DNA of 64,000 nt from Klenkia brasiliensis (GTDB lineage: Bacteria > Actinomycetota > Actinomycetes > Mycobacteriales > Geodermatophilaceae), in NCBI RefSeq assembly GCF_900100695.1, contig NZ_FNCF01000002.1, forward strand, positions 1 to 64,000, given 5' to 3'. Every line of letters starts with the position of its first letter. Positions within the stretch are counted from its first letter, which is position 1. The position numbers and the translations under genes are program-made. This document shows positions 38,434 through 53,299 of this stretch, piece after piece. The notes under the pieces were generated by a model that did no database searches, was not told the origin of the DNA, and saw only the letters and a list, made by a program, of their open reading frames with translations.

Positions 38434-39413
38434 GACCCCGAGTCTGCCTGCCGGGCCGCGGCCCGGCTGGCGTAGTCGCCCCGCCCGGTGTCGGCGCGCC
38501 AGTCGGCGAAGGACTCCCCGGTGACCTCCTCGAGCAGTGCCACGTCGTCGAGCACCCGGGCCTGCACCGCGCGGCGCACCTCGACCGGCAGCGGCGGCCG
38601 CCGCACCGCACCGGCGTGCAGCGCGGCCAGCAGCGGCCGGCTGGCCTGCCGCCAGACCTGCGGCGGCACGTGCGCGCCCGCGGCGGCGCCGGCGCGGGCC
38701 AGCCGGGCCAGCGCCCGGTACCGCGGGGTGTCGGCGACGTAGGGCTTGACGTTCTCGGGCGGGACGGCGCGGGCCACCCCGGTGCGCACCCCGAGGAACT
38801 CGCTCACCCGGTCCAGCGTGCGGGCCTGCTCGGAGACCACCTCGCGGAACCGGAGCACCAGCAGCTGCTCGCGGGGGACGAGGGTCAGCAGGTGCTGCAG
38901 CTGCTCGCCGTAGCGGCCCATCCGGGTGTAGTGCCAGAACGGTGCCCACCCGTCGGCCACCCGCTGGTCCTCCAGCTCCACGGCGCGGCCGAAGTCGGGC
39001 TCGGGCTCCAGGCCGTCGGCGCGCAGGTGCACCCAGTTCGAGATCGCCCGGTCCACCGGGTCGCGCACCACCGCGACCACCTTGACGTCGGGGACGTCGG
39101 CGACCAGCCGGCGCTGGGCGGCCCGGTCGTAGAGGTAGAACGGCGTGCTCTCCCCGCGCACCGCGTCGGCCGGCGCCCGGTCGAACAGGGCCAGGTAGCG
39201 GTCCCGACGCCAGACCCACTCCTGCGCGCTGTGCGCGTCACCGGGGCCCCGCTGGGTGCGGGCCGGTGGCGGGCGCCCGTCGCAGAGGTAGAACTTCGGC
39301 TCCTTGACCGGCGACAGGTACAGCTGCGGGTGGGTGGCCAGCGCGGCGTGCAGCGCCGTCGTCCCCGCCTTGGGTGCGCCGGCCAGGACGAACTGCGGCA
39401 GCCGTTCGGTCAT
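38430..39413 (-). CDS. sulfotransferase (PAPS-dependent)
   Basis: A 327-residue cytoplasmic sulfotransferase. The 5'-phosphosulfate loop is FVLAGAPKAGTTALHAAL (residues about 8-25) and the 3'-phosphate site is VVAVVRDPVDRAISNWVH. These enzymes move sulfate from PAPS to a hydroxyl or amine of a carbohydrate, lipid or small molecule; the acceptor is unknown. The ATG at 39411-39413 overlaps the winged-helix gene stop by 4 bp, and its own stop overlaps the propeller gene. The operon is headed by a Cys-type leader peptide, consistent with tying PAPS use to sulfur supply. Confidence 0.9.
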   Translation of the reverse strand: MTERLPQFVLAGAPKAGTTALHAALATHPQLYLSPVKEPKFYLCDGRPPPARTQRGPGDAHSAQEWVWRRDRYLALFDRAPADAVRGESTPFYLYDRAAQRRLVADVPDVKVVAVVRDPVDRAISNWVHLRADGLEPEPDFGRAVELEDQRVADGWAPFWHYTRMGRYGEQLQHLLTLVPREQLLVLRFREVVSEQARTLDRVSEFLGVRTGVARAVPPENVKPYVADTPRYRALARLARAGAAAGAHVPPQVWRQASRPLLAALHAGAVRRPPLPVEVRRAVQARVLDDVALLEEVTGESFADWRADTGRGDYASRAAARQADSGS

Positions 39414-39895
39414 GCGGGGTCCAATCGGTAACCGCGGCCACGGACGGTGACCAGCTGGTGCGCGGCGCTGCCGAGCTTGGCCCGCAGCCGGGCCACGTGC
39501 ACGTCGACGGATCGGACGCCGGTGGTCGTGCCCGCGCCCCACACCGACGCGAGCAGGGCGGCGCGGGCGACCACCCGGCCGTCGGCCGCGGCCAGGGCGG
39601 CCAGCAGCTCGAACTCCCGCACGGTCAGGGACAGCCGGCGCCCGGCCACCGTGGCGACGTGCGCGGCGGGCCGGACGACGAGCGGGCCCAGCTCGTGGAC
39701 GTCGTCGACCGGGGCGGGCGGGGCGGCGGGTGCGAGCAGCGCGGCGAGCGGAGCCAGCTGCTCGGGCGTGGGCGGCAGCAACCGGCCGTCCTCGGTGAGC
39801 ACCAGCAGCGCGACCGGCGCCGAGCCGGGCGGTGCGGGCAGCGCACGCAGGTGGGGCGACGGAGCCGGCAGGGGGAGGGACAGAGCAGCGGACAT
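39410..39895 (-). CDS. winged-helix (OmpR/PhoB-type) regulator without receiver domain
   Basis: A 161-residue protein. Residues 1-70 are low-complexity with a short possible sensor part (PVALLVLTEDGRLLPPTPEQL). Residues 72-158 are a complete OmpR-type DNA-binding domain (LSLTVREFELLAALAAADGRVVARAALLASVWG.. VRSVDVHVARLRAKLG.. LVTVRGRGYRLD). There is no phosphorylatable receiver. It is the first full gene after the leader peptide at 39942-40016, 46 bp away, and overlaps the sulfotransferase gene by 4 bp. It may regulate sulfur genes in this region (inference). Confidence 0.82.
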   Translation of the reverse strand: MSAALSLPLPAPSPHLRALPAPPGSAPVALLVLTEDGRLLPPTPEQLAPLAALLAPAAPPAPVDDVHELGPLVVRPAAHVATVAGRRLSLTVREFELLAALAAADGRVVARAALLASVWGAGTTTGVRSVDVHVARLRAKLGSAAHQLVTVRGRGYRLDPA

Positions 39896-39941
39896 GCGGG
39901 TCTCCAGCAGCGGAGGAGGGTCGGGGGACGGCGGTGGCGCG

Positions 39942-40016
39942 TCAGGGCCGACAGCTGCTGGAGCCCACCCGGGCGAGGTCGACGTGCAGACGCCGGCTCA
40001 GGGTCGGGTGGCTCAC
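39942..40016 (-). CDS. Cys-type leader peptide upstream of winged-helix/sulfotransferase operon
   Basis: A 24-codon reading frame from GTG (40014-40016) to TGA (39942-39944). It encodes a peptide with RRLHVDLARVGSSSC followed by Arg-Pro and stop. Short peptides with the pattern RR-x-HVDL-x-R-x-x-S-x-x-C occur upstream of sulfur-assimilation genes in actinobacteria and are thought to sense Cys-tRNA supply by attenuation. Two more of this type are in the window (51052-51159 and 51397-51474). It ends 46 bp before the winged-helix gene. Confidence 0.68.
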   Translation of the reverse strand: MSHPTLSRRLHVDLARVGSSSCRP

Positions 40017-40093
40017 GGCGCATTCCTACCATCCCCACCGGTTCACTGGGGAATGGCCGCGGGTGATCCCGACCGCTTTCCCTACCAGTCTGG

Positions 40094-40123
40094 TGGACAT
40101 TGCCGGGCGGCCCGGGCTACCGT
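40094..40123 (+). promoter_or_regulatory. promoter of SAM-IV riboswitch 1
   Basis: A -35-like TGGACA (40094-40099) and a -10-like TACCGT (40118-40123) are 18 bp apart. Transcription would begin near 40130, exactly at the first base of the riboswitch P1 stem. Confidence 0.5.
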
Positions 40124-40130
40124 CGGGGTC

Positions 40131-40240
40131 GGTCATGAGCGGCAGCGGCAAGCCCTGGCTCGCTGTCCGGCAACCCTCCTCCGCGGCGGGGTGCCCCAGG
40201 TGATGACCCGGCGAGCCGCGCCCGCGGCCCGCAAGCGCGG
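40131..40240 (+). promoter_or_regulatory. SAM-IV riboswitch 1, upstream of two LLM monooxygenases
   Basis: The P1 stem GGTCAT (40131-40136) pairs with ATGACC (40203-40208). Between them are the conserved SAM-IV segments: AAGCCCTGGCTCGC, CCGGCAACCC, and GGGGTGCCCCAGGTGATGA. The 3' part GCAAGCGCGG (40231-40240) recurs in the other two copies of this window. SAM-IV RNAs bind S-adenosylmethionine and lower expression when SAM is plentiful. The next gene starts 57 bp further on, and the region between 39896 and 40297 holds only this element and the minus-strand leader peptide. Confidence 0.88.
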
Positions 40241-40297
40241 TACCCGGTCGGCGGCGCCGACCCGGAGCTCGTACCGCCGAGCCGCCCGGAGGAGCAC

Positions 40298-41488
40298 GTG
40301 CCCCACCCCCCGATCCACCTCGTCGCCGCCCTCGACGGCGCCGGCTGGCACCCCGCCGCCTGGCGCGAACCCGGCGCCCGGCCGGCCGAGCTGCTGACCG
40401 CCGGCTACTGGACCGACCTGGTGCAGGAGGCCGAGCGCGGCCTGCTGGACGCGGTCACCCTCGAGGACGCCTTCGCCCTGCAGTCCGACGACCCCTTCGT
40501 CGCCGACGACCGCACCGACCGGGTCCGCGGCCGGCTGGACGCGGTGCTCGTGGCCTCCCGGGTCGCGCCGACCACCCGGCACATCGGCTTCCTGCCGACC
40601 GCCGTGGTCACCCACACCGAGCCCTTCCACCTGTCCAAGGCCATCGCCACGCTGGACTACGTGAGCTCCGGCCGGGCCGGCGTCCGCGTGCAGGTCGCCG
40701 CCCGGCCCGACGTGGCCGCCCACCTCGGCCGCCGTGAGCTGCCGCCGGTCGACCGGGACGCGGTCGCCACCGCACCGGTGGTCGTCGAGCTGTTCGACGA
40801 GGCCGCCGACTACGTCGAGGTCCTGCGCCGGCTCTGGGACAGCTGGGAGGACGACGCGGAGATCCGTGACGCCGCCACCGGACGGTTCGTCGACGTCGAC
40901 AAGCTGCACTACATCGACTTCGAGGGCCGGCACTTCTCCGTCCGCGGGCCCTCGATCACCCCGCGGCCGCCGCAGGGCCAGCCCCTCGTCGCCGCCCTCG
41001 GCCACGCCGAGGTGCCCTGGCGGCTGATCGGGCGCTCGGCCGACCTCGGCTTCGTCACCCCCACCGACGCCGCGGACGCCACCCGCCTGGTCGACGCCGT
41101 CCGCACCGAGCAGGCGGCCGCCGGCCGGGCGGAGGAGACCGTGCACGTGTTCGGCGACCTGCTCGTCGTGCTCGACGACGACGCGTCCGCCGCGGCCGAC
41201 CGGCTGGCCCGGCTCGACGAGGTCGCGGGGGCGCCCCTGCGCAGCGACGCCCGGGTGTTCACCGGCACCCCCGCCCAGCTCGCCGACCTGCTGCTGGAGT
41301 GGCAGCGGGCCGGGCTGACCGGCTTCCGGCTGCGGCCCGCCGTCCTGCCCGACGACCTGGCGCGGATCACCCGCGACCTGGTGCCCGAGCTGCAGCGCCG
41401 CGGCGCCTTCCGCACCGGGTACGAGGCCGCGACCCTGCGCGGGCTGCTCGGCCTGGGCCGCCCCGCCAACCGCTACGCGAACGCCTGA
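40298..41488 (+). CDS. LLM-class flavin-dependent monooxygenase
   Basis: A 396-residue bacterial-luciferase-like TIM-barrel oxygenase that uses reduced FMN from a separate reductase. It opens PHPPIHLVAALDGAGWHPAAW and has HIGFLPTAVVTHTEPFHLSKAIATLDYVSSGR, the strand where family members bind flavin. LLM enzymes related to DszA, SsuD, NtaA and YtmO oxidise C-S, sulfone, sulfonate or amine substrates. Placement under a SAM-IV riboswitch points to sulfur scavenging. The GTG at 40298 follows GGAGGAG closely. The second LLM gene starts 10 bp after the stop. The exact substrate is unknown. Confidence 0.88.
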   Translation: MPHPPIHLVAALDGAGWHPAAWREPGARPAELLTAGYWTDLVQEAERGLLDAVTLEDAFALQSDDPFVADDRTDRVRGRLDAVLVASRVAPTTRHIGFLPTAVVTHTEPFHLSKAIATLDYVSSGRAGVRVQVAARPDVAAHLGRRELPPVDRDAVATAPVVVELFDEAADYVEVLRRLWDSWEDDAEIRDAATGRFVDVDKLHYIDFEGRHFSVRGPSITPRPPQGQPLVAALGHAEVPWRLIGRSADLGFVTPTDAADATRLVDAVRTEQAAAGRAEETVHVFGDLLVVLDDDASAAADRLARLDEVAGAPLRSDARVFTGTPAQLADLLLEWQRAGLTGFRLRPAVLPDDLARITRDLVPELQRRGAFRTGYEAATLRGLLGLGRPANRYANA

Positions 41489-41498
41489 GGAGACCGCC

Positions 41499-42863
41499 GT
41501 GCCCAAGCAGATCCACCTCGCCGCGCACTTCCCCGGCGTCAACAACACCACCGTGTGGAGCGACCCCTCCTCGGGCAGCCACATCGAGTTCGACTCGTTC
41601 CGGGAGTTCGCCCAGATCGCCGAGCGCGGGAAGCTGGACTTCATCTTCCTGGCCGAGGGCCTGCGGCTGCGTGAGCAGAACGACCGCATCTACGACCTCG
41701 ACGTGGTCGGCCGGCCCGACACCTTCACCGTGCTGGCCGCCCTGGCCGCCGTCACCGACCGCATCGGGCTGACCGGCACGATCAACTCCACCTTCAACGA
41801 GCCCTACGAGGTGGCCCGGCAGTTCGCCAGCCTGGACCACCTCTCCGGCGGGCGGGCCGCCTGGAACGTCGTCACCTCCTGGGACGCGTTCACCGGCGAG
41901 AACTTCCGCCGCGGCGGGTTCCTCGCCCAGGGCGACCGGTACGACCGGGCGCGGTCGTTCCTGCAGACCGCCACCGAGCTGTTCGACTCCTGGCGCGGCG
42001 ACGAGGTCGTCGCGGACAAGGACGGCGGCACCTTCCTCGCCGACCCGCACCCGGGGACCTTCGCCCACCGCGACCGCTTCTTCGACATCAGCGGCCAGTT
42101 CGACGTGCCGCGCAGCCCGCAGGGCCGCCCGGTCGTGTTCCAGGCCGGCGACTCGGACGAGGGCCGGGACTTCGCCGCCGCCTCGGCCGACGCGATCTTC
42201 TCCCGGCACAGCACGCTCGAGGCCGGCCAGGCCTTCTACGCCGACGTCAAGGGCCGCCTGCCCCGGTTCGGCCGCGGCCGCGACGAGCTGCTCATCCTGC
42301 CCGCGGCCACCTTCGTGCTCGGCGACACCGAGGAGGAGGCCGCGGAGCTCGCGCAGCAGATCCGGCTGGCCCAGGTCTCGCCCGCGACGGCGATCAAGTT
42401 CCTCGAGCAGCTGTGGAACCGCGACCTGTCCGACCACGACCCCGACGGCCCGCTGCCCTCGGTCGACCCGGTCGTCGGGGAGAACACCATCGCCCGCGGC
42501 CGGGCCAGCGTGCGCATGCACCGCGACCCGGTGGCCACCGCGCAGGAGTGGCGGGCCAAGGCCGAGGCCGAGCACCTCACCACCCGCGAGCTGATCGTCG
42601 AGGTGACCGGCCGGCAGTCCTTCGTGGGCACGCCGCAGACGGTCGCCGACACCATCGACCGGTACGTGCAGGCCGACGCCAGCGACGGGTTCATCCTGGT
42701 CCCGCACATCACCCCGGGCGGGATGGCGCCCTTCGTGGACCGGGTGGTCCCGCTGCTGCAGGAGCGCGGGGTGTTCCGGGCCGACTACGAGGGGACGACG
42801 CTGCGCGACCACCTCGGTCTGCCCCTGCGCGGCGCCGGCGGGGCCTCGGCGGTCGCCTCCTGA
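41499..42863 (+). CDS. LLM monooxygenase of the NtaA/SnaA/DszA(SoxA) group
   Basis: A 454-residue FMNH2-dependent monooxygenase. Family features are KQIHLAAHFPGVNNTTVWSD, EFAQIAERGKLDFIFLAEG, SGGRAAWNVVTSWD, NFRRGGF, and RPVVFQAGDSDEGRDFAA. This length and pattern match NtaA/SnaA/DszA proteins, including B. subtilis YtnJ, which oxidises S-alkyl-N-acetylcysteine compounds. It lies directly after another LLM gene behind a SAM-IV riboswitch, so a role in breaking C-S bonds of organosulfur nutrients is likely (inference). The start is GTG 41499, with GAGGAG 6 bp upstream. Confidence 0.9.
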   Translation: MPKQIHLAAHFPGVNNTTVWSDPSSGSHIEFDSFREFAQIAERGKLDFIFLAEGLRLREQNDRIYDLDVVGRPDTFTVLAALAAVTDRIGLTGTINSTFNEPYEVARQFASLDHLSGGRAAWNVVTSWDAFTGENFRRGGFLAQGDRYDRARSFLQTATELFDSWRGDEVVADKDGGTFLADPHPGTFAHRDRFFDISGQFDVPRSPQGRPVVFQAGDSDEGRDFAAASADAIFSRHSTLEAGQAFYADVKGRLPRFGRGRDELLILPAATFVLGDTEEEAAELAQQIRLAQVSPATAIKFLEQLWNRDLSDHDPDGPLPSVDPVVGENTIARGRASVRMHRDPVATAQEWRAKAEAEHLTTRELIVEVTGRQSFVGTPQTVADTIDRYVQADASDGFILVPHITPGGMAPFVDRVVPLLQERGVFRADYEGTTLRDHLGLPLRGAGGASAVAS

Positions 42864-42867
42864 GCAC

Positions 42868-43105
42868 TCAGCGCAGGAGGGGGAGGACCTCCTCGCCGAC
42901 CCGCCAGGCCTCCTCCAGGTGCGGGTAGCCCGAGAGCACGAACCCCTCGAACCCCAGATCGCGTACTCGGGGATCCGCGCGGCGACACCGCGCCCAGGTG
43001 GTCCAGGGTGGGCCGGCGGCGCAGCGCGGCGGCGTCGTGCCCGCGGTCGGTGGTGGCCGGGCCGACGTCGCGGCTGTCGCCCCGGGTGGGCAGGGACCAG
43101 TGCAT
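42868..43105 (-). pseudogene. ssuD: ssuD (alkanesulfonate monooxygenase) remnant
   Basis: The minus strand reads MHWSLPTRGDSRD and RRPTLDHLG from ATG 43103-43105, which matches the first 40 residues of SsuD-type LLM enzymes. Then it jumps directly to the C-terminal end: VAARIPEYA in one frame and, after a 1-bp shift near 42958, DLGFEGFVLSGYPHLEEAW and VLPLLR to the stop at 42868-42870. SsuD is about 380 residues, so roughly 300 internal codons are gone. This is a clear internal deletion with frame changes. It lies divergent to the SAM-IV riboswitch at 43161. Confidence 0.8.
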
Positions 43106-43146
43106 CTCCACGGCTTTGCTCCACCATGCCGATCGGGATTGTCTGC

Positions 43147-43152
43147 TAGCGT
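43147..43152 (+). promoter_or_regulatory. -10 element upstream of SAM-IV riboswitch 2
   Basis: TAGCGT at 43147-43152 in the context TGCTAGCGT is a -10-like hexamer. The P1 stem begins 9 bp later at 43161, so the transcript would start with the riboswitch. No good -35 is visible. Confidence 0.4.
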
Positions 43153-43160
43153 TCCGGGCA

Positions 43161-43270
43161 GGTCACGAGTGCCAGCGCGAAGCCCCGGCTCGCTGGCCGG
43201 CAACCCTTCCACCGCGATGGGGTGCTCCGGGTGACGACCTGGCGGCTGCGCAGCGCAGCCGCAAGCGCGG
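43161..43270 (+). promoter_or_regulatory. SAM-IV riboswitch 2, upstream of PLP enzyme and OsmC
   Basis: GGTC (43161-43164) pairs with GACC (43236-43239). Inside are AAGCCCCGGCTCGCTGG, CCGGCAACCC and GGGGTGCTCCGGGTGA, the SAM-IV core. The 3' segment GCAAGCGCGG (43261-43270) is the same as in riboswitch 1. The PLP-enzyme ATG is 34 bp further on, after a GGGCCC-palindromic stretch that may control the ribosome site. Likely represses the operon when SAM is high. Confidence 0.88.
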
Positions 43271-43304
43271 GCCCCACGGGCCCTGGAACGCCAGGAGTGC
43301 ACCG

Positions 43305-44639
43305 ATGTCCCTCACCCTCGACTGCCGCCCGACCGCCGCCCTGCTCCCGACCCTGGGGTCGCAGGTCCCGCTGGTCACCGGCGGGTCGGTCGACTACGCC
43401 AACCTCGACGTCGCCGCGAGCGCCCCCGCCCTGGCGCCGGTCGCGGCCGCGGTCGCCGAGGCGCTGCCGGGCTACGCCAGCGTGCACCGCGGCGCCGGCT
43501 ACCTCTCGCAGGTCTGCACCGCCCGCTACGAGTCCGCCCGCGACACCGTCGCCGCCTTCGTCGGCGCCCGCGAGGACGACGTGTGCGTGCTGACCCGCAA
43601 CACCACCGACAGCCTGTCGCTGCTGGCCGGCTGCCTGCCCGCCGACGGCGCCGTCCTCGTCCTGGACGTCGAGCACCACGCCGACCTGCTGCCCTGGCAG
43701 CAGCGCTCCCGCGACCTGTGCGACGTCCTGGTCGCCGCCCCGACCGTCGCCGGGACGCTGGACCTGCTCGCCGACGCGCTGGCCGCCCGCCGGTACGTGC
43801 TGGTCGCGGTCACCGGTGCCTCGAACGTGACGGGGGAGTCCCTGCCGCTGCGCCGGGTGGCCGACCTCGCGCACGCGCACGGCGCGCTGCTGGTCGTCGA
43901 CGGGGCCCAGCTGGTGCCGCACCGCCGGTTCTCCCTCGCCGACACCGGGGCCGACTGGGTCGCCCTGTCCGGCCACAAGCTCTACGCGCCGTTCGGCACC
44001 GGTGCGCTGGTCGGCCGGCGCGACTGGCTGGACACCGGCCGCCCGTACCTGCCCGGCGGCGGTGCGGTCGGCCAGGTCGACCTCGACGCGACCACCTGGG
44101 TGCCGGCCCCGCACCGGCACGAGGGCGGGTCGCCGAACGTGCTCGGCGCCGTCGCGCTGGCCGCCGCGTGCGACGCCCTGGCCGCGCTGGCGCCGGGCGA
44201 GCTGGAGGAGCACGAGCGCCGGCTCCGCGCCCGCCTGGTGGAGGGCCTGACCGCCGTCGACGGGGTGCGGCTGCTGCGCATCTGGTCGGACTCGGTGGAC
44301 CCGACCGGCGTCGTCTCCTTCACCGTCGAGGGCGCCGACCCGGGCCTGGTGGCGGCGTACCTGTCCGCCGAGCACGGCATCGGCGTCCGCGACGGCCGGT
44401 TCTGCGCGCACCCGCTGCTGGCCCGGCTCGGCGTCCCCGGTGGCGCGCTGCGGGCCAGCGTCGGCGTCGGCACGTCCTCGGACGACGTCGACCGGCTGGT
44501 GGCCGCCATCACCCGGTTCGTCGCCGACGGACCGGGAACCACCTACGCGGTGGTCGACGGCCGGCACCAGCCGGTCGGCGACCCCCGCCCGGCCGCCGAC
44601 GCCGCCGCCCGAGGTGCCGGGTGCGGCCCGGCCCGGTGA
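43305..44639 (+). CDS. SufS/CsdB-like aminotransferase class V (cysteine desulfurase-like)
   Basis: A 444-residue PLP enzyme. The cofactor lysine is in SGHKLYAPFGTGALVG, preceded by LLVVDGAQLVPHRRF, where Asp-Gly-Ala-Gln holds the pyridine ring. A cysteine sits in DGRFCAHPLL, at the place of the SufS active-site cysteine, which takes sulfur from cysteine and leaves alanine. Other class-V enzymes (C-S lyases, isopenicillin epimerase-like) are possible. The last 40 residues are a Pro/Ala-rich extension. ATG 43305 has AGGAG 8 bp upstream. It sits behind a SAM-IV riboswitch with OsmC downstream, so it probably mobilises sulfur. Confidence 0.85.
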   Translation: MSLTLDCRPTAALLPTLGSQVPLVTGGSVDYANLDVAASAPALAPVAAAVAEALPGYASVHRGAGYLSQVCTARYESARDTVAAFVGAREDDVCVLTRNTTDSLSLLAGCLPADGAVLVLDVEHHADLLPWQQRSRDLCDVLVAAPTVAGTLDLLADALAARRYVLVAVTGASNVTGESLPLRRVADLAHAHGALLVVDGAQLVPHRRFSLADTGADWVALSGHKLYAPFGTGALVGRRDWLDTGRPYLPGGGAVGQVDLDATTWVPAPHRHEGGSPNVLGAVALAAACDALAALAPGELEEHERRLRARLVEGLTAVDGVRLLRIWSDSVDPTGVVSFTVEGADPGLVAAYLSAEHGIGVRDGRFCAHPLLARLGVPGGALRASVGVGTSSDDVDRLVAAITRFVADGPGTTYAVVDGRHQPVGDPRPAADAAARGAGCGPAR

Positions 44640-44703
44640 ACTGATCCCCGAACTCCCGCCGAACCCCGGCGGAGCACCGTCTTCCAACCAGAGGAGATCC
44701 ACC

Positions 44704-45174
44704 ATGGCCACCCGGCCCAAGGCGAGCGTCGTCCCCTTCACCAACCACGCTGAGGGGACCGGCGTCGGCCAGAGCGTCACCGTCGGCGGCGACGCCGGCC
44801 ACGTGTTCGAGGTCGACACCTACCCGGCCTTCGGCGGCGCGGACGCCAAGCCCAGCCCGCTGTCCTACGTGCTGGGTGCGCTGACCTCGTGCAACCAGAT
44901 CACCGCCTCGATCGTGGCCAAGGAGCTGGGCGTGACCCTGGGCTCCTGGACCTTCGACGTGCAGGGCGACCTGGACACCGCCGTCATGGTCGGCGGCGAG
45001 GAGGGCAACGCGAACTTCGACGCCGTCACCGTGCGCGCCACCGTGCAGACCGACGCCGACGACGAGACCTTCGAGAAGCTGAAGGCCGACACCGAGCGCC
45101 GCTGCCCGGTCACCCAGCTCTTCCAGCGCTCCGGGCTGGAGTACACGAGCGAGTGGACCAAGGCCGCGCTCTGA
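44704..45174 (+). CDS. OsmC/Ohr family protein
   Basis: A 156-residue OsmC-fold protein. The two redox cysteines are in LTSCNQIT and RCPVTQLF, the typical pair that reduces organic or lipid hydroperoxides and, in some members, handles thiol compounds. It belongs to the YhfA-like branch rather than Ohr by the look of its motifs. ATG 44704 has GAGGAG upstream. It follows the SufS-like gene by 64 bp and shares its riboswitch, suggesting a role with sulfane or thiol products. Its 3' end overlaps the convergent EamA gene by 65 bp. Confidence 0.87.
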   Translation: MATRPKASVVPFTNHAEGTGVGQSVTVGGDAGHVFEVDTYPAFGGADAKPSPLSYVLGALTSCNQITASIVAKELGVTLGSWTFDVQGDLDTAVMVGGEEGNANFDAVTVRATVQTDADDETFEKLKADTERRCPVTQLFQRSGLEYTSEWTKAAL

Positions 45175-46033: not shown

Positions 46034-46060
46034 GGAAGACACAATGCCTTCCGTGGAAGG
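46027..46060. promoter_or_regulatory. two operator-like palindromes over divergent start codons
   Basis: CTTCCATGGAAG (46027-46038) and CCTTCCGTGGAAGG (46047-46060) share the core CTTCC-R-TGGAAG and are 21 bp apart, two helical turns. The EamA start codon is inside the first and the likely MarR ATG (46044) lies between them. Binding of MarR would block both genes. Confidence 0.6.
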
Positions 46061-46574: not shown

Positions 46575-46660
46575 TCAGGTCCCCTGATCGAACTCCGTCC
46601 TCCTGCACCAGATCCGGCGCAGGAGGACGGAGATGGATCAACCTCCCTGATCAACGCTGG
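46565..46660. repeat. palindromic repeat, copy 2 (complete)
   Basis: CCAGCGTTGATCAGG (46565-46579) and CCTGATCAACGCTGG (46646-46660) are perfect complements. Inside, CTCCGTCCTCCTGC (46593-46606) pairs with GCAGGAGGACGGAG (46619-46632). The MarR stop codon lies within the left arm and the binding-protein stop begins 2 bp after the right arm. The first copy (32703) shares the left arm and inner stem. Both lie between convergent genes. Confidence 0.85.
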
Positions 46661-46661
46661 A

Positions 46662-47633
46662 TCAGGAGGCGACCGAGGGGTTGAGCTCGGGGGCGTCCAC
46701 GGCCTCGTCGGACAGGCCCCAGCGCGCCAGGGTCTCCGCGTAGGTGCCGTCGTCGAAGGCGTGCTGCAGCGACGCCTGCACCGCCTCCGCCAGCCCGTTG
46801 CCCTTCAGCGTCGTGGCCGCCACGTAGGTGGTGTTCGGCCAGCCGGCGTTGACCGTGCCCACGACCTCGATGTCCCCGACCGACTCCTGGTACACCGCGT
46901 TCGGGTTGGGCCCGATGTAGGTGTCCAGCCGGCCGGACTGGATCGCCAGCAGTGCGTCGGCCGCGCTGACGTAGTACTCCAGCGTCGCCGGGGCCTTGCC
47001 CTCGGCCTCGAGCTGGGCGTTCCAGTCGAGCAGGATGCGCTCCTGGTTGGTGCCCGAGCCCACGCCCACCGACAGGCCCGAGATGCCCTCGGCGTCGTCG
47101 ATGGACAGGCCGCTGTCGGGGGCCGCGACGAAGGCCATGATCCCCTGCCGGTAGGTGGCGAAGTCGAACAGCTGCAGCCGCTCGGCGTTCACGCCCACGT
47201 TGGAGAACACCGCCTCCAGGTCGCCGGACTGCACCCCCAGCGGCCACGCCTCCCAGGTCGTGTTGACCACCTCGAGCTGCAGGCCCAGGCCGTCGGCGAC
47301 CAGCTGGGCGATGTCGACCTCGCTGCCCACGACCGTGGTGTTGTCGTCGGCGAGGAAGCCCAGGGGCGGGTCGCCGGCGCCGGTGACGCCCACCCGCAGC
47401 ACGCCGTCCTCGGCGATGGCCGCGGGCACCAGGGCCGCGGCGTCCGCGTCCTCGTCGGTGCGCACCCGGTCGGCCTGCTCCGGCGACGTGTCGACCACCA
47501 GCGCGGTGTCGGCGGGGGCGTCCGACGCCCGCGCGTCGGCCTCGATCTCCGCCGAGCTGGTGCACGACGTCAGCAGCAGGACGGCGGCCAGCGGCAGCGC
47601 ACTGACCAGGGACGACAGCCGGGTGCGTTCCAC
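46662..47633 (-). CDS. ABC transporter substrate-binding lipoprotein (second paralogue)
   Basis: A 323-residue lipoprotein. The signal peptide ends LLLTSC with the lipid cysteine at residue 24. The rest is a family 3 polar-amino-acid binding protein: GVLRVGVTGAGDPPLGFLADD, GSEVDIAQLVADGLGLQ, FATYRQGIMAFV and YIGPNPNAVYQ. It is a tandem duplicate of the gene upstream (shared post-lipobox SSAEIE, VDTSPEQ and ADDNTTV). With the permease and ATPase it forms one importer with two receptors, like TcyJ/TcyK of Bacillus. The GTG at 47631-47633 has AGGAGG upstream. Confidence 0.88.
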   Translation of the reverse strand: MERTRLSSLVSALPLAAVLLLTSCTSSAEIEADARASDAPADTALVVDTSPEQADRVRTDEDADAAALVPAAIAEDGVLRVGVTGAGDPPLGFLADDNTTVVGSEVDIAQLVADGLGLQLEVVNTTWEAWPLGVQSGDLEAVFSNVGVNAERLQLFDFATYRQGIMAFVAAPDSGLSIDDAEGISGLSVGVGSGTNQERILLDWNAQLEAEGKAPATLEYYVSAADALLAIQSGRLDTYIGPNPNAVYQESVGDIEVVGTVNAGWPNTTYVAATTLKGNGLAEAVQASLQHAFDDGTYAETLARWGLSDEAVDAPELNPSVAS

Positions 47634-47650
47634 GTGGAACCTCCTGGGGG

Positions 47651-48631
47651 TCACGAGCCGAGGCCCGGGGGGTTGAGCTGGGAGGAGTCGACGGCCTCGG
47701 CGGACAGGCCCCACCGGGCCAGCACCTGCGCGTACGTGCCGTCCTCGATCGTGTGCTGGATCGCCGCCTGGAAGGCCTGCGCGTACCCGTTGCCCTTGAC
47801 CGTGGTCACCGCGATGTCGGCGGTGGCCGGCCAGCCGCCGCTGGTGGTGCCGGCGACCGCGAAGTCCTGCGGCGAGGTGGCCGCGCTGTAGGCGGCGGTG
47901 GGGTTGGGCCCGACGTAGGCGTCCAGCCGGCCCGACTGCAGGGCCAGGACGGCGTCGTTGTAGCTCTGGTAGTAGTCGATCGTGACCGGTGCGAGGCCGG
48001 CGTCGACGTTCTCCTGGTTCCAGGCCAGCAGGATCTGCTCCTGGTTGGTGCCGGAGGAGACGCCCACGGTGAGGCCGGCGATGTCCGGGGCCGAGGAGAT
48101 GGACAGGCCGGAGTCGGCCTGCACCAGCCAGCCCAGGACGTCGGAGCGGTAGGTGGCGAAGTCGTAGAGCTGCTTGCGCTCCTCGGTGACCGTCACGTTG
48201 GAGATGACCGCGTCCACGTCGCCGGACTGCACCGACAGCGGCCAGTTCGACCAGTCGTTGACCACGAACTCGACCTGCAGGCCGAGCGCGTCGGCGAAGA
48301 CCGTCGCGAGGTCGGTCTCGCTGCCGATGACCGTGGTGTTGTCGTCGGCGTAGAAGGCCAGCGGCACCGCGCCCTGGGTGACCGAGACGCGCAGCACCCC
48401 GTCGTCGAACGCACCGGCGGGCAGCAGGGCCACCGCCTCGGGGTCGACGGTGGAGTGGATGCGGTCCTGCTCGGGGCTGGTGTCCACGGAGATGGCGGTG
48501 CCGGAGGCGCCCGCGGCGTCGGTGCGGGCCTCCTCCTCGATCTCGGCGCTGCTGCTGCACGCCCCGAGGGCCAGGAGTGCGGCGGTGGCCAGGGACAGTG
48601 CGACGGTGCTGCGTCGCAGGTGTGCAGTCAC
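47651..48631 (-). CDS. ABC transporter substrate-binding lipoprotein (first paralogue)
   Basis: A 326-residue lipoprotein with lipobox LGAC (Cys 25) and the fold of family 3 amino-acid receptors: VPLAFYADDNTTVIGSETDLATVFADALGLQ, QLYDFATYRSDVLGWLV and AYVGPNPTAAY. It lies 75 bp after the ATPase gene and 17 bp before its paralogue. Under a SAM-IV riboswitch and Cys-type leader, the likely ligand is a sulfur amino acid such as cystine or S-methylcysteine, which is inference. GTG 48631 is the start. Confidence 0.88.
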   Translation of the reverse strand: MTAHLRRSTVALSLATAALLALGACSSSAEIEEEARTDAAGASGTAISVDTSPEQDRIHSTVDPEAVALLPAGAFDDGVLRVSVTQGAVPLAFYADDNTTVIGSETDLATVFADALGLQVEFVVNDWSNWPLSVQSGDVDAVISNVTVTEERKQLYDFATYRSDVLGWLVQADSGLSISSAPDIAGLTVGVSSGTNQEQILLAWNQENVDAGLAPVTIDYYQSYNDAVLALQSGRLDAYVGPNPTAAYSAATSPQDFAVAGTTSGGWPATADIAVTTVKGNGYAQAFQAAIQHTIEDGTYAQVLARWGLSAEAVDSSQLNPPGLGS

Positions 48632-48706
48632 GGGTGTGCTTCCTCTTCTGGGCGTGCTTCATCGACGGGCGGCGCGGTCGCGCCGTCCGGGTCCGGGGGG
48701 GTGGGG

Positions 48707-49486
48707 CTAGAGGACCTTGGCCAGGAAGGCCTTCGTCCGCTCGTGCTGCGGGTCGTCGAGGACCTGCGCCGGGGTGCCCTGCTCCACGATCCGGCCCTCG
48801 TCCATGAAGACGATCCGGTCGGCGGCCTGGCGGGCGAAGCCGATCTCGTGGGTGACCACGATCATCGTGGTGCCGGTGCGGGCCAGGTCGGTGATGACCG
48901 ACAGCACCTCGCCGACGAGCTCGGGGTCCAGCGCCGAGGTGGGCTCGTCGAACAGCAGGACGGCGGGCTTCATGGCCAGCGCGCGGGCGATGGCCACCCG
49001 CTGCTGCTGGCCGCCCGAGAGCTGCCGGGGGTGCGCGCCGGCCTTGTCGGCCAGCCCCACCCGGGCCAGCAGCTCGCGGGCCTCGGCCTCGACCTCGCGC
49101 CGGTTGCGCCCCTGGGCGGAGACCGGAGCCTCGACCACGTTCTCCAGCGCGGTGAGGTGCGGGAACAGGTTGAAGGACTGGAAGACGAAGCCGAACCGGG
49201 TGCGCTGGCGCAGCAGCTCCCGCTCCTTGAGCTCGTGCAGCACGTCGCCCCGGCGGCGGTACCCGACCAGTTCGCCGTCCAGCGCCACGTAGCCGCGGTC
49301 GACGGTCTCAAGGTGGTTGATGCTGCGCAGCAGCGTCGACTTCCCCGAGCCCGACGGGCCGAGGACCACCGTCACGCTGCCGGGCTCCACCACGAGGTCG
49401 ACGCCGTGCAGCACCTCGTGGGCGCCGAAGGACTTGTGCACGCCGTGCACCTCGACCCGCCCCGGGCGGGCGTCCACGGCGGTCAC
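48707..49486 (-). CDS. amino-acid ABC transporter ATP-binding protein
   Basis: A 259-residue ATPase of the GlnQ/HisP/TcyN group. Walker A is GPSGSGKST, the Q-loop region is [18 protein letters not shown], the signature is LSGGQQQR and Walker B is [15 protein letters not shown]; the switch histidine is in VVTHEIGFA. It drives the importer made of the permease (49483-50448) and two lipoproteins. The GTG at 49484-49486 overlaps the permease stop by 4 bp, showing translational coupling. The C-terminus is complete and typical. Confidence 0.94.
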
Positions 49487-50448
49487 CGGGTCACCGGGTC
49501 CTGGCCGGAGGTGGACCGGACGCGGGCCAGGCCCGCGGTCAGGTTGCCGCGCAGCCGTTGCAGGGGTGTGGGCGGCAGCGTGCGCACCGCACCACGGGCG
49601 TAGTACCGCTCGACGTAGAACTGGATGACCGTGACCACCGTGGTCAGCACGACGTACCAGATCGCGGCGACCACCAGCATCGGCAGCACCCGCTGGGTGC
49701 GGCCGTAGATGACGCTCACGGTGTAGAACAGCTCGCCCAGCGCCAGCACGTAGACGATCGAGGTGCCCTTGAACAGGCCGATGACCTCGTTGACCGCGGT
49801 CGGCACGATGGTGCGCATCGCCTGCGGCAGCACGATGCGGGTGGACTGCCGGCGGCGGGGGATGCCGAGGCTCGCCGCGGCCTCGTGCTGGCCCTGGTCG
49901 ACCGAGAGGATGCCGGCCCGCACGATCTCCGCGGAGTAGGCGGCCTGGTGCAGGCCGAGCCCCAGGATCGCGGCGCCGAACTTGTCGATCAGCGAGAGCG
50001 TCTCGAAGCTCGCGAAGGACGGGCCGAACGGGATGCCGACGTCCAGGGTCTGGTACAGGTAGGCGAGGTTGTACCAGAGCAGCAGCTGCAGGATCAGCGG
50101 CACCGAGCGGAACACCCAGGTGTAGCCCCAGCTCACCGCGCGCAGCAGCGGTGACTGCGACAGCCGCATGAGCGCCAGCACCGTGCCCAGCGCGAAGCCG
50201 AGGACGGCGGTGATCAGCGTCAGCTTGATCGTCATCCAGACGCCCTCGACGATCGAGACCTCGCCCAGGTAGGCCCAGACGACACCCCACTCCCACCGCG
50301 GGTTGGTGATCAGCGAGTTGGCCACCATGGCCAGCAGGACGGCGACGACGGCGGTGGCCGCCCAGCGCCCGGGGTGGCGCGCCTTGACCACCCGCAGGCC
50401 CTCGTAGGGGTTCGCCTCGGCGACGGGTCGGTGCTCCAGCAGGGTCAT
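49483..50448 (-). CDS. amino-acid ABC transporter permease
   Basis: A 321-residue HisM/GlnP-type permease. A hydrophilic N-terminus of about 30 residues precedes a first membrane helix. The conserved permease domain then starts at [22 protein letters not shown], with [16 protein letters not shown] and the coupling-loop [28 protein letters not shown]. The single permease probably acts as a homodimer. The ATG at 50446-50448 overlaps the acetyltransferase stop by 4 bp, so GNAT, permease and ATPase genes are translated in a chain. Confidence 0.93.
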
Positions 50449-50975
50449 GGCAGGTCCTTGGTGAACGGGTAGATGCGCTCGGCGACCGGGAGGGTGCGCA
50501 GCGTGGCCAGGTCGGTGGGGCGGGGGCCGTCGAACAGCGGCGTGTAGCCGGCGGCGAGGTAGAGGTCGCGGGCCTCGGGCTGGCGCGGCCCGGTGGTCAG
50601 GAAGACCCGGCGGTGGCCGCGGGCGGCGGCGAGGGTCTCCAGCTCGTGCAGCACCCGGCGGGCCAGGCCACGGCGGCGGTGGGTGGCCGCCGTCCACATC
50701 CGCTTGACCTCGACGGTGCCGGCGTCGGCGTGCGGCATGAACGCGCCGCCGGCGACCGCCGCGCCGTCCTCGAGCAGCAGCACGAACGCGCCGAGCGGGT
50801 CGACGAACAGCTCGGCCGGGTAGCGGGTCAGCTCCTCGGCGGCGCCGCCGAACAGGTCGCCGTAGCGCCGGTCGTACTCGACGGCGAGCTCGGCGAACAG
50901 CGGCGCGGCCAGCGGGTCGTCGGGGTGCACGACGACGACCCGCAGGTCGGCGCCGGGCAGCAGGGATCGGGACAT
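50445..50975 (-). CDS. GNAT family N-acetyltransferase
   Basis: A 176-residue acetyltransferase. The acetyl-CoA binding loop is [20 protein letters not shown] and the end of the fold is [24 protein letters not shown]. It is the first gene of the importer operon and overlaps the permease gene by 4 bp. In the Bacillus ytmI operon the equivalent enzyme (SnaA) N-acetylates S-alkylcysteines after import, so the same job is plausible here. The ATG at 50973-50975 is the start. It follows a Cys-type leader and a SAM-IV riboswitch. Confidence 0.88.
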
Positions 50976-51051
50976 GCGAGGGCTCCAGCGGTCAGGACGG
51001 AGACCCCCCGCGGACGCGTCGTCCGGGGGAGCAGGGGGACCTGGGAACAGG

Positions 51052-51159
51052 TCAGCGACAGAGCGCGCTGTCGGTACGGACCAGGTCGATGACCGGCCGT
51101 CCGACCAGGAGGAGGGCAGGCAGCGCCGCGGACCGCGGTGCGGTCGGGTGCGTGTCCAT
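51052..51159 (-). CDS. Cys-type leader peptide of the importer operon
   Basis: A 35-codon frame from ATG (51157-51159) to TGA (51052-51054). Its end reads RPVIDLVRTDSALCR and stop, matching the actinobacterial sulfur leader pattern (H/I-x-DLxRxxSALC). AGGAG lies 6 bp upstream of the ATG on its strand. It lies between the SAM-IV riboswitch (51193-51301) and the acetyltransferase (51 bp of gap plus the leader stop), so translation of its late Cys codon could control transcription into the operon. Confidence 0.72.
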   Translation of the reverse strand: MDTHPTAPRSAALPALLLVGRPVIDLVRTDSALCR

Positions 51160-51192
51160 GCCGGTCTCCTCGTCCCCCGCCGTGGGGCGGGG

Positions 51193-51301
51193 CTGCACTT
51201 GCGACGGACGGACGCCGTCGCCAGGTCGTCACCCGGGGCACCCCGCCGCAGCGGAGGGTTGCCGGCCAGCGAGCCGGGGCTTGTCGCTGGCGCTCAGGAC
51301 C
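51193..51301 (-). promoter_or_regulatory. SAM-IV riboswitch 3, upstream of importer operon
   Basis: On the minus strand GGTC (51301-51298) pairs with GACC (51227-51224). The core has AAGCCCCGGCTCGCTGG, CCGGCAACCC and GGGGTGCCCCGGGTGA, and the 3' part has GCAAGTGCAG (51202-51193), the same position as in copies 1 and 2. A CCCCGCC-GGCGGGG hairpin lies just after it, before the leader's ribosome site. A TTGACG/TACGGT promoter ends at its first base. Confidence 0.9.
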
Positions 51302-51309
51302 TGTGCGGG

Positions 51310-51339
51310 ACCGTAGAACCGTCCAGGCCCCGACGTCAA
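51310..51339 (-). promoter_or_regulatory. promoter of SAM-IV riboswitch 3
   Basis: On the minus strand a -35 TTGACG (51339-51334) and a -10 TACGGT (51315-51310) are spaced by 18 bp. Transcription would start near 51303, at the riboswitch P1 stem. It is the best housekeeping-type promoter I find in the window. Confidence 0.6.
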
Positions 51340-51396
51340 ATCCGATCGACTTGGTGGAGAATGGGCGGTGAGCCCGCCCCGGAGAGGAGGTCCGCC

Positions 51397-51474
51397 GTGC
51401 CCGCCCAGCCCCTGGTCCGCCGTCGGCACGTCGACCTGCGCCGGACCGGCAGCGCGCTGTGCCGGGGCTGCTGA
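51397..51474 (+). CDS. Cys-type leader peptide upstream of FAD/NAD(P) protein
   Basis: A 25-codon frame from GTG (51397-51399) to TGA (51472-51474). It contains RRRHVDLRRTGSALCRGC and stop, with two Cys codons at the end. GAGAGGAGG precedes the GTG by 6 bp. It matches the sulfur-type leader pattern better than the other two. It lies 40 bp upstream of the FAD/NAD(P)-binding protein gene and diverges from the SAM-IV importer operon. Confidence 0.75.
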   Translation: MPAQPLVRRRHVDLRRTGSALCRGC

Positions 51475-51514
51475 GCCCCTGCGCCCCAGCCCGCCCGACC
51501 CCCGGAGCACCCCC

Positions 51515-53299
51515 GTGACCAGCACCTCCGCCCTGACCGCCGTCCTCGTCGGCGCCGGACCGACCGCCGTCGGCGTCCTGGACCGCTTGCTCGCCCACGC
51601 CGGTGGCCGCCCGCTCGAGGTGCACCTGGTCGACCCGCACCCGGCCGGCGGCGGCCGGATCTGGCGGACCGCCCAGTCCGACCTGCTGTGGGCCAACTCA
51701 CTGGCCCGTGACATCACGGTGCTGCCCGACGCCTCCTCCACCGTGGCCGGTCCGGTCGGCCCGGGGACGACGCTGTCGGAGTGGGCGCAGCGCACCGGCG
51801 TCCCCCTGGACCGGGACGCCTTCCCGCCGCGCACGGTGGTCAACGCCTACCTGTCCTGGGTGCTGGAGTCCCTGGCCGCGGCGCCCGGGCTCACCCTGCA
51901 CCGGCACATCGACCGGGTGGTCGACGTCGAGGAGCACCCGGGGGGCGTGCAGGTCCGGCTGGCCGGCGGCGACCGGCTGGACGCCGACGTCGTCGTGCTC
52001 GCCCAGGGCCACCTGGACCGCGAACCGGGTGCGGGCGAGCAGGCCCTGGGGGCGGCGGCCCGCGCGGCCGGGCTGACGCACGTGCCCACCGGCTACACCG
52101 CCGACCTGGACCTCGACGTGCTGCAGCCGGGGGAGGACGTGCTGGTGCGCGGGGCGGGCCTGGCCTTCGTGGACCTGGTCACCCTGCTCACCGGCGGCCG
52201 CGGCGGGCGGTTCGACGAGGTCGACGGCCGGCTGGTCTACCGGCCCAGCGGCCGCGAGCCGGTGCTGCACGTCGGCTCCCGCCGCGGAGTGCCCTACCGG
52301 GCCAAGCTGGGCTACCCGTGGGCCGGCCCGCCGGTGCCGCTGACCTACCTGACCCCCGACGCGCTGCGCGAGCGCTTCGGTGACCGGCCGCTGGACCTGC
52401 GCGCCGACCTCGCACCCGTGGTGGCCCGCGAGCTGGGCCGGGTCGCCGCCGCCGAGCTGTTCCGCGCCCACCCGGAGCGGACCCGCATGCCGTGGGCGGA
52501 GTTCGCCGCCCGGTACGACGCCGTCGAGGACGCCGCGGAGCTGTGGGCGGAGGCCGTGCCCGACCCGGCCGACCGGTTCGACCTGGCTGCGCTGGACCGC
52601 CCGCTGGCCGGGCGCCGGTTCGCCGACGGCGAGGCACTGCAGGAGTGGGTCCGCGACCACGTGCGAGCCGACCTCGCCCGGGCCGCCGACCCGGCCTTCA
52701 GCCAGGACCAGGCAGTGTTCACCGCGCTGCTGTTCACCCACGGCACGATCGCCGGGCTGGTGCGCGCCGGCCGGCTCACCGAGCGCAGCGAGCGCGAGGA
52801 CGTCAGCGGCTGGTGGATGAACCTGTTCAGCTACCTGGCCAGCGGCCCGCCGTCCCCCCGGCTGCGCGAGCTGCTGGCCCTCAGCGAGGCCGGCGTCGTC
52901 CGGTTCACCGGCGCCGACACCGTCGTGACCCTGGAGGCCGGCCGCTGGGTGGCCCGCTCGGCCAGCACCGACGAGGTGGTCACCGCGACCGCGCTGGTCG
53001 AGGCGCGGGTGCCCGAGGTCGACCTGGCCGCCACCACCGACCCGCTGCTCACCGCGCTGCTGGGCCGGGGCCTGGCGGCGGAGAAGGGCGGCCGGCTGCA
53101 CGTCGACGCCGGTTCCCGCCTGGTGGACGCCGGGGGACGGGCCTCGGAGCGGGTCTCGGCCGTGGGGTTCTGGACCTCGGGCGCGCAGGTCGCCGCGTTC
53201 GCCCGCCCCGGCACCGACGCGCCGTTCTTCCACCAGAACGACGCCCTGGCCGCGCGGCTGTGGCGGTCGGCACCGGTCGGCGCGGCCCGCGCCGCCTGA
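51515..53299 (+). CDS. FAD/NAD(P)-binding protein (NAD_binding_9 type)
   Basis: A 594-residue protein. The N-terminal dinucleotide fold opens VLVGAGPTAVGVLDRLLAHAG, followed by GGRIWRTAQSDLLWANS and VVVLAQGHLD. The last part contains a second nucleotide-binding piece and VGFWTSGAQVAAFARPGTDAPFFHQND. This type of two-lobed flavoprotein is common in actinobacteria, often near siderophore or sulfur genes; its reaction is not known to me. It is single-gene, behind a Cys-type leader, so it is probably induced by cysteine shortage. GTG 51515 is the start. Confidence 0.84.
   Translation: MTSTSALTAVLVGAGPTAVGVLDRLLAHAGGRPLEVHLVDPHPAGGGRIWRTAQSDLLWANSLARDITVLPDASSTVAGPVGPGTTLSEWAQRTGVPLDRDAFPPRTVVNAYLSWVLESLAAAPGLTLHRHIDRVVDVEEHPGGVQVRLAGGDRLDADVVVLAQGHLDREPGAGEQALGAAARAAGLTHVPTGYTADLDLDVLQPGEDVLVRGAGLAFVDLVTLLTGGRGGRFDEVDGRLVYRPSGREPVLHVGSRRGVPYRAKLGYPWAGPPVPLTYLTPDALRERFGDRPLDLRADLAPVVARELGRVAAAELFRAHPERTRMPWAEFAARYDAVEDAAELWAEAVPDPADRFDLAALDRPLAGRRFADGEALQEWVRDHVRADLARAADPAFSQDQAVFTALLFTHGTIAGLVRAGRLTERSEREDVSGWWMNLFSYLASGPPSPRLRELLALSEAGVVRFTGADTVVTLEAGRWVARSASTDEVVTATALVEARVPEVDLAATTDPLLTALLGRGLAAEKGGRLHVDAGSRLVDAGGRASERVSAVGFWTSGAQVAAFARPGTDAPFFHQNDALAARLWRSAPVGAARAA

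Follow-up and report, generated by a model that had tools for sequence, protein, structure and literature searches.

A SAM-IV riboswitch followed by a cysteine leader ORF as a candidate two-input regulator of organosulfur genes in Klenkia brasiliensis and other actinobacteria

In Klenkia brasiliensis (Geodermatophilaceae), an operon for an acetyltransferase and an ATP-binding cassette (ABC) importer is headed by an unusual pair of elements: a riboswitch of the S-adenosylmethionine (SAM) class SAM-IV and, directly behind it, a short open reading frame (ORF) of the cysteine leader type. The pair lies at 51301-51052 on the minus strand of a 64,000-nt stretch (assembly GCF_900100695.1, contig NZ_FNCF01000002.1, positions 1 to 64,000), hereafter termed the window. 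The leader starts (51159, minus strand) 30 nt past the end of the aptamer (51190), and to judge from this spacing both should belong to one 5' leader RNA. The tandem is conserved, it recurs elsewhere with unrelated leaders, its leader is spaced from the aptamer much as a regulated gene is and has the rare UGU codon near its end, and a C-rich interval follows. We consider it somewhat better than an even chance that these features make up a cis-regulator with two inputs, in which the riboswitch would gate translation of the leader and the leader would gate the operon, such that the genes are expressed only under a joint shortage of SAM and cysteine. A first-pass annotation of the same DNA had listed the parts, and the tandem of one SAM-IV element with one leader went unremarked there.

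In the proposed course of events, bound SAM would block the initiation of translation at the leader, as SAM-IV elements are presumed to do at SufS- and MetY-type genes. At low SAM levels the leader would be translated, and a shortage of charged cysteine tRNA would stall the ribosome at the UGU codon. The stalled ribosome would then keep Rho off the downstream RNA, or prevent that RNA from covering the next ribosome-binding site by folding, and the operon would be made. With either SAM or cysteine in plentiful supply, no ribosome would stand at the leader end and transcription would end early. This serial arrangement is preferred because it is the simplest one that makes use of all the marks, i.e. 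the spacing, the UGU codon and the C-rich interval.

Both classes of element were verified. The three SAM-IV elements recognized by the first-pass annotation lie far over the gathering cut-off of the covariance model RF00634 (94.1-107.8 bits vs 38), and the whole genome holds four at E <= 0.001, the fourth about 100 kb away, before the gene for MetY (O-acetylhomoserine/O-acetylserine sulfhydrylase). SAM binding and SAM-dependent control are predicted for the window elements. The three cysteine-type leaders of the window were confirmed as well: two pass the cut-off of 27 bits of the NCBIfam leader model NF042934 (cis_reg_atten; 28.4 and 29.5 bits), and the tandem leader at 51159-51052 (minus strand), which scores below it (18.3 bits), is supported by its conservation in 21 of 21 orthologous operons. 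The genome has ten matches of NF042934, four of them over the cut-off. Seven (E up to 0.032), of which three lie in the window, are regarded here as leaders; the other three (E 0.27-2.3) were judged to be chance matches. The four leaders outside the window directly precede genes for a sulfite reductase/3'-phosphoadenosine-5'-phosphosulfate (PAPS) reductase (L071), a cysteine dioxygenase homologue (L069), a DUF4395-rhodanese protein (L070) and a TauE exporter (L068), and the leader family thus sits on sulfur genes in this genome. A regular expression for the leader matched 47 times in the loci collected and never in the same sequences reversed without complementing. Being short ORFs with conserved cysteine codons before sulfur genes, the window leaders have the hallmarks of cysteine leaders, and a response to cysteine by ribosome stalling is predicted for them. 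Neither a U-tract terminator nor a sigma-70 consensus promoter was found in the two stretches scanned, 50950-51550 and 39880-40320.

Three control layouts stand side by side in the window. SAM-IV alone heads the genes for two luciferase-like monooxygenases (LLM1 and LLM2) and the SufS-like-OsmC pair, a cysteine leader alone heads the FAD monooxygenase gene and the winged-helix-sulfotransferase genes, and the two in series head the acetyltransferase (GNAT), permease, ATPase and two solute-binding protein (SBP) genes. The idea of a single regulon repressed by SAM and cysteine thus survives in that organosulfur genes lie under SAM-IV elements and cysteine leaders, but not as a uniform regulon.

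Within the Geodermatophilaceae the tandem is constant. Close orthologues of the permease (83-100% identity) occur in 21 of 112 family genomes, and SAM-IV followed by the leader precedes the operon in all 21; a 22nd permease match at 49% identity was taken as a paralogue. Identical aptamers were counted once, which left 112 distinct ones, and the ORFs behind them were judged by three criteria (a VDL-type leader, a CC or CxC motif, and a short ORF with UGU close to its end), with shuffled sequences giving the expected numbers. Among the 23 distinct SAM-IV elements with GNAT or permease in the operon, a VDL-type leader follows 22 (expected 0.00) and UGU near the short-ORF end follows all 23 (expected 0.32). 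The 23rd element (L059) is followed by a variant whose reading frame is shifted but whose end DNA is unchanged. In that locus (7567-7809), STLLRTDSALCR lies in another frame, and retention of the end DNA may mean that mainly the 3' part counts. None of the three criteria detected a leader-like ORF behind three further groups of family SAM-IV elements, those of the SufS type (0/23), the MetY type (0/8; MetY identity of the target confirmed in 8/8) and the LLM1 type (0/5); elements whose gene was not identified (e.g. L028-L030, L041, L043, L064) were placed in no group.

The pairing recurs outside the family with leaders of other sequence. SAM-IV also precedes the orthologous operons of Cellulomonas, Cellulosimicrobium and one Oerskovia (the Cellulomonas set), and behind it comes a short ORF that is unrelated in sequence and carries CC or CxC, mostly at its end (e.g. 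...SCCRR*, ...RSCCR*, ...GACCR*). Such an ORF lies behind 18 of the 19 elements (expected 0.42), and the UGU criterion applies to all 19 (expected 0.30). A third composite, again in the window's own family, stands before a gene for a family-5 solute-binding protein (annotated in L034; L044 and L048 by the same layout). SAM-IV is present in 100 of 148 genomes of the class, and at 115 SAM-IV places chosen among these we found a VDL-type leader at 7 (expected 0.0) and a CC/CxC ORF at 11 (expected 1.7), the union being 14 tandems in seven GTDB families besides the window's, with L200 doubtful by eye. The targets, annotated at places other than L162, L199, L200, L203 and L245, include an SsuE-type FMN reductase (L178), an MsnO8-type LLM enzyme (L206), an amino-acid ABC permease (L235), peptide/nickel-type solute-binding proteins (L220, L244 and, weakly, L249) and MetY (L189, L228, L243). 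Some of these leaders are polycysteine peptides, such as MCCCCLSLAHR (L245) and MDDMCCCRMQQVTGA (L228).

As the tandem occurs across families with unrelated leaders, the two elements seem to have been brought together on several occasions. We entertain, at a confidence just short of even, a recurrent actinobacterial logic element, in which SAM-IV would control the translation of another sensor and both would meet at one Rho-sensitive interval. Equally tentative, and part of the same reading, is the view that the SAM-IV/cysteine-leader element arose or was re-tooled repeatedly, before importers, monooxygenases, an FMN reductase and MetY.

A first mark of function is the distance from the aptamer to the first start codon backed by a Shine-Dalgarno (SD) sequence. 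For the GNAT-type leader the median is 32 nt (14-36, n=23), next to 34.5 nt for the genes of SufS type (30-40; 14 of 23 measured), 35 nt for the third composite (n=3) and 35 nt for the Cellulomonas set (found in 11/19). The leader start thus lies directly behind the aptamer, as in riboswitch-controlled upstream ORFs (uORFs), and the leader appears to take the position that a riboswitch-regulated gene has.

The second mark is codon choice. The cysteine codon of the GNAT-type leaders is UGU in 23/23, compared with 39 of 1436 cysteine codons in those called genes of these loci that reach 150 aa. Three other codons of the leader are likewise invariant, Ser AGC, Leu CUC and the last Arg CGC, each in 23/23. 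UGU accounts for 49 of 59 leader cysteine codons in the Cellulomonas set (genes, 5/224) and for 24 of 39 class-wide (15 leaders, with L180 and L181 included and L200 left out; genes, 65/390). Among 28 leaders without SAM-IV, 19 likewise have it as their last cysteine codon, so that UGU may mark cysteine leaders generally. The bias extends over unrelated leader types, despite shared ancestry within each. UGU and UGC are read by one tRNA, UGU through a wobble pair, and UGU should therefore slow first as charged cysteine tRNA becomes scarce. Pairing between leader end and aptamer was considered as the cause of the fixed UGUCGCUGA and dropped because the longest runs, G-U pairs allowed, are similar with SufS-type aptamers (12 with most own aptamers, up to 12 with the SufS type; means 11.7 and 10.5), and because the invariant leader end contrasts with a variable aptamer core. 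A hairpin GACAG...CUGUC in the leader end is a possible cause of UGU in the GNAT type; as UGU is likewise used by the Cellulomonas leaders, which are unrelated, and by leaders that have no SAM-IV, the codon choice itself seems to be preferred.

The third mark lies downstream. Within 70 nt past the leader stop, C minus G exceeds 0.2 in 18 of 23 GNAT-type cases, the corresponding counts being 10 of 178 for upstream controls and 20 of 223 for stretches behind ordinary stops; the same holds for 9/19 in the Cellulomonas set (vs 14/81) and for 25/28 other leaders. We infer that this C-rich, G-poor interval resembles a loading site of Rho (rut site).

Several points weigh against the serial model. 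Its support is drawn entirely from sequence, the motifs and criteria were chosen after inspection of the sequences, and leaders within one type share ancestry, so that the counts are not independent events. The spacing of the MetY type (44 nt, 35-45, n=8) is longer than the leader's, and for 8 of 19 members of the Cellulomonas set no strong-SD start was found. C-richness is a mere proxy for a rut site, and the window interval (50976-51051) also folds into a GC hairpin that is no stabler than in shuffles (z -0.67). In crude folding, with the pseudoknot outside the model, the leader ribosome site was not hidden in a SAM-dependent manner: it was unpaired at 0.39 free, 0.37 with P1 forced and 0.35 with the pseudoknot strand also free, next to 0.34, 0.35 and 0.35 for the SufS site and 0.29, 0.44 and 0.31 for the MetY site in the same three states. 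Nor did masking the leader end free the next ribosome site in the crude fold (0.45 to 0.47), access rising by more than 0.1 in 3/23 and falling in 2/23. Finally, neither SAM-IV nor a match to the leader expression was found in any of 20 Micrococcaceae loci with a permease orthologue. The folding tests, taken together, neither support nor exclude the serial model. In a predicted fold of 51052-51189 (minus strand; z -1.52), the Shine-Dalgarno sequence of the leader pairs with CUCCUC inside the leader ORF, a stretch that may possibly act as an anti-SD in Klenkia.

The Micrococcaceae loci supply the case named beforehand as contrary to the regulon idea, namely the same genes without such leaders; it occurs outside the family and not inside, where all 21 operons have both elements. 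Most of the 20 loci also hold GNAT, FzmM-like and LLM genes. In 13 of them (L121-L124, L127-L129, L131, L133, L135-L137, L143), a different conserved short ORF with cysteine, [MV]KK[CY]KF.PC[CW]..., lies close upstream of the importer. Its cysteine codons are nearly all UGC, and a TAGATT box inside it, noticed by eye, is a possible -10 element, so the ORF may not be transcribed; it was left out of the leader counts. It could be promoter DNA or a leader, and in the latter case cysteine control would be wider than stated here. Six Oerskovia/Sanguibacter loci likewise have no SAM-IV at E 0.01, a weak match in Sanguibacter (L097; 22.1 bits, E 0.063) having been set aside. From these loci, the gene set appears to be older or wider than the tandem control.

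Among the alternatives, the one that survives best is that of two independent switches acting in parallel, SAM-IV alone and the leader alone through unmasking of a ribosome site, on a common mRNA and without gating each other. Each class of element does occur alone in the same genomes, and mycobacterial polycysteine attenuators reportedly act by ribosome-site unmasking. We nevertheless regard parallel action as unlikely, though far from negligible, given that the aptamer-to-leader spacing is near that of riboswitches facing a SufS-like gene, that the two stretches scanned lack a U-tract terminator, and that stalling leaves the next ribosome site masked in the crude fold. Considerably less probable is that the leader ORF is the true target of the riboswitch, its cysteine codons being incidental and the operon being coupled by reinitiation with no sensing of cysteine. 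The ppe2 gene provides an example of a uORF under riboswitch control that is coupled by reinitiation (PMC11260477, as excerpted), but here cysteine and the rare UGU are retained although the peptide differs completely between families, 19 of the 28 leaders without SAM-IV end on UGU too, and the next SD-backed start lies 67-160 nt past the leader stop, a long way for reinitiation. Ordinary sulfur regulation with a chance juxtaposition of common elements hardly deserves credence: so widespread an element as SAM-IV (100/148 genomes) is expected to have all sorts of neighbours, but observed and shuffled counts stand at 22 vs 0.00 and 18 vs 0.42, and class-wide at 7 vs 0.0 and 11 vs 1.7.

The serial model has partial precedents, for which the cited papers are used in excerpt. 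The Mbox of Mycobacterium tuberculosis (pe20) is a riboswitch with a translational platform that leads to a conserved uORF and Rho-dependent termination (PMC12810186). The order of riboswitch and uORF is shared with the present tandem, in which the Rho step would be the counterpart; the Mbox, however, senses Mg2+ and the role of its conserved uORF is called unclear in the excerpt (PMC12810186), whereas SAM-IV and a cysteine leader would provide two metabolite inputs. The poorly conserved uORF1 beside the Mbox has rare TGC and TGT codons (PMC12810186) and could be another cysteine-reading ORF behind a riboswitch. For riboswitch-controlled uORFs as such, the B12 switch of ppe2 is a precedent (PMC11260477). 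Like the mycobacterial polycysteine attenuators and the families NF042934 and NF042936, the leaders described here are short ORFs with cysteine codons before sulfur genes; the mycobacterial ones are reportedly leaderless (work cited in PMC9094748, PMC13236596), whereas these lie behind SAM-IV and mostly have their own Shine-Dalgarno sequence. SAM-IV is known before O-acetylhomoserine sulfhydrylase, cysteine desulfurase or cg1478 (PMC3774663, PMC8079986, PMC3890552), i.e. the same aptamer with similar targets, and the excerpts of these papers make no mention of a leader ORF that would separate the two. The tandem attenuators of Salmonella mgtCBR likewise place two sensors in one leader, but these are two short ORFs, not an aptamer and an ORF, and respond to unrelated signals (PMC3641672). 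Among the matches listed in a search of open-access PMC literature, with subscription papers mostly outside the search, no description was found of a cysteine leader paired with SAM-IV, of the breadth of this pairing or of the UGU mark. While the parts are each known, these three aspects appear to be new within the literature searched.

The gene content and order given by the first-pass annotation were upheld by ORF calling and by Pfam and NCBIfam (Table 1), and the genes would suit a pathway that takes up S-substituted cysteines or other organosulfur compounds, N-acetylates them and cleaves them with flavin-dependent enzymes. The S-alkylcysteine clusters of Bacillus subtilis include an amino-acid ABC importer. 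Acetyltransferase and monooxygenase are likewise combined in the scm (yxe), yha and ytn clusters (PMC12757645, as excerpted), and in the window an acetyltransferase, an NtaA/YtnJ-type monooxygenase and an amino-acid ABC importer occur together, in two neighbouring operons. The parallel drawn earlier to ytmI-ytnM gains from the best relatives of LLM2 in the Protein Data Bank (PDB), which are YtnJ (284 bits), nitrilotriacetate (NTA) monooxygenase (266) and DszA (252); as these scores are close, the link to YtnJ is suggestive and not decisive, and S-alkylcysteine as the substrate stays an analogy. LLM1 lies just below the TIGR03860 cut-off, and NTA monooxygenase, DszA and YtnJ are about equal as its PDB relatives. 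In contrast to the B. subtilis clusters, the window has no linked N-acetylcysteine deacetylase, its regulation is another, and it adds an FzmM-like monooxygenase and SufS-like and OsmC genes. The absence of a deacetylase and a flavin reductase from the cluster, as noted before, is correct: 11 M20 deacetylase and 5 flavin reductase matches occur in the genome, none of them in the cluster, and the leader expression had no match in the 13 of these loci that were read (8/11 M20, 5/5 flavin reductase). The neighbourhoods of some relatives add DUF1684 and DAO-type oxidase genes.

The protein first described as an FAD/NAD(P) protein (51515-53299) can be specified as a homologue of the aspartate N-hydroxylase FzmM (PDB 8cp2; E 3.5e-79 over residues 7-584; Foldseek TM 0.83, 37% identity). 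Its substrate may be an aspartate analogue that contains sulfur. Two such compounds are cysteate and cysteine sulfinate, and that the enzyme is an oxygenase releasing sulfite from these is a guess. In most of the loci examined from Geodermatophilaceae and Micrococcaceae, an FzmM-like gene lies close to that of the importer.

Table 1. Features of the window around the SAM-IV/cysteine-leader tandem, with the basis of each assignment
Feature	Position	Strand	Evidence
SAM-IV aptamer, first sensor of the tandem	51190..51301	-	Rfam RF00634, 94.1 bits
GAGGAG, Shine-Dalgarno sequence for the leader ORF, some 20 nt past the aptamer	51166..51171	-	sequence
Cysteine leader ORF MDTHPTAPRSAALPALLLVGRPVIDLVRTDSALCR, putative second sensor, Cys codon UGU	51052..51159	-	conservation, leader regular expression
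Interval from leader stop to acetyltransferase start	50976..51051	-	C-rich/G-poor as a group; putatively rut-like
GNAT acetyltransferase	50445..50975	-	Pfam PF00583
ABC permease, polar amino acid/cystine type	49483..50448	-	PF00528; best model cystine permease, 132.4 bits (below cut-off 300)
ABC ATPase, TcyN-like	48707..49486	-	best NCBIfam PRK11264, 318.8 bits (below cut-off 406)
Solute-binding protein 1, family 3	47651..48631	-	PF00497
Solute-binding protein 2, family 3	46662..47654	-	PF00497
Cysteine leader peptide (25 aa) before FAD monooxygenase, without SAM-IV	51397..51474	+	NF042934, 29.5 bits
FAD/NADPH monooxygenase, FzmM homologue	51515..53299	+	PF13454; PDB 8cp2; Foldseek
SAM-IV before LLM pair, without leader	40131..40243	+	RF00634, 102.4 bits
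LLM monooxygenase 1, NtaA/DmoA-like	40298..41488	+	PF00296; TIGR03860, 272.2 bits vs cut-off 279.7
LLM monooxygenase 2, NtaA/DmoA family	41499..42863	+	TIGR03860, 410.4 bits (over cut-off); best PDB relative YtnJ
SAM-IV before SufS-like gene, without leader	43161..43273	+	RF00634, 107.8 bits
SufS-like class V aminotransferase	43305..44639	+	PF00266; TIGR01979, 282.9 bits (below cut-off 475.1)
OsmC-like protein	44704..45174	+	PF02566
Cysteine leader MSHPTLSRRLHVDLARVGSSSCRP before winged-helix-sulfotransferase genes	39942..40016	-	NF042934, 28.4 bits
Winged-helix DNA-binding protein	39410..39895	-	PF00486
Sulfotransferase	38430..39413	-	PF13469 / PF00685
GH43/GH130-like propeller protein (predicted)	37531..38433	-	without Pfam family; model pLDDT (predicted local distance difference test) 85.8; Foldseek

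Further observations concern the surroundings of these elements. L017 (14449-14766) and L020 (4493-4810) each contain two SAM-IV elements in a back-to-back arrangement on opposite strands, separated by about 95 nt; L093, L098, L103, L094 and L106 have the same arrangement with a separation of about 156-229 nt. Upstream of the GNAT-ABC genes, five Cellulomonas loci (L099, L104, L105, L112, L146) have two unannotated ORFs and an additional ABC ATPase gene that shares 38-40% identity with that of the window. The neighbour of the sulfotransferase gene in the window, which has no Pfam match, is predicted from its model to be a GH43/GH130-like propeller.

If the serial model is true, actinobacteria would join cysteine and SAM, two end points of sulfur assimilation, in one RNA, and this pairing would be simple to find and to test. 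It would account for the long gap between some SAM-IV elements and their gene, and it would provide a codon-level mark of regulatory cysteine leaders, namely UGU where genes use UGC. It would, furthermore, link sulfur starvation to a group of monooxygenases and importers about which little is known, and the theme of a uORF behind a riboswitch, represented in M. tuberculosis by Mg2+ and B12, would be widened to a sensor of two metabolites.

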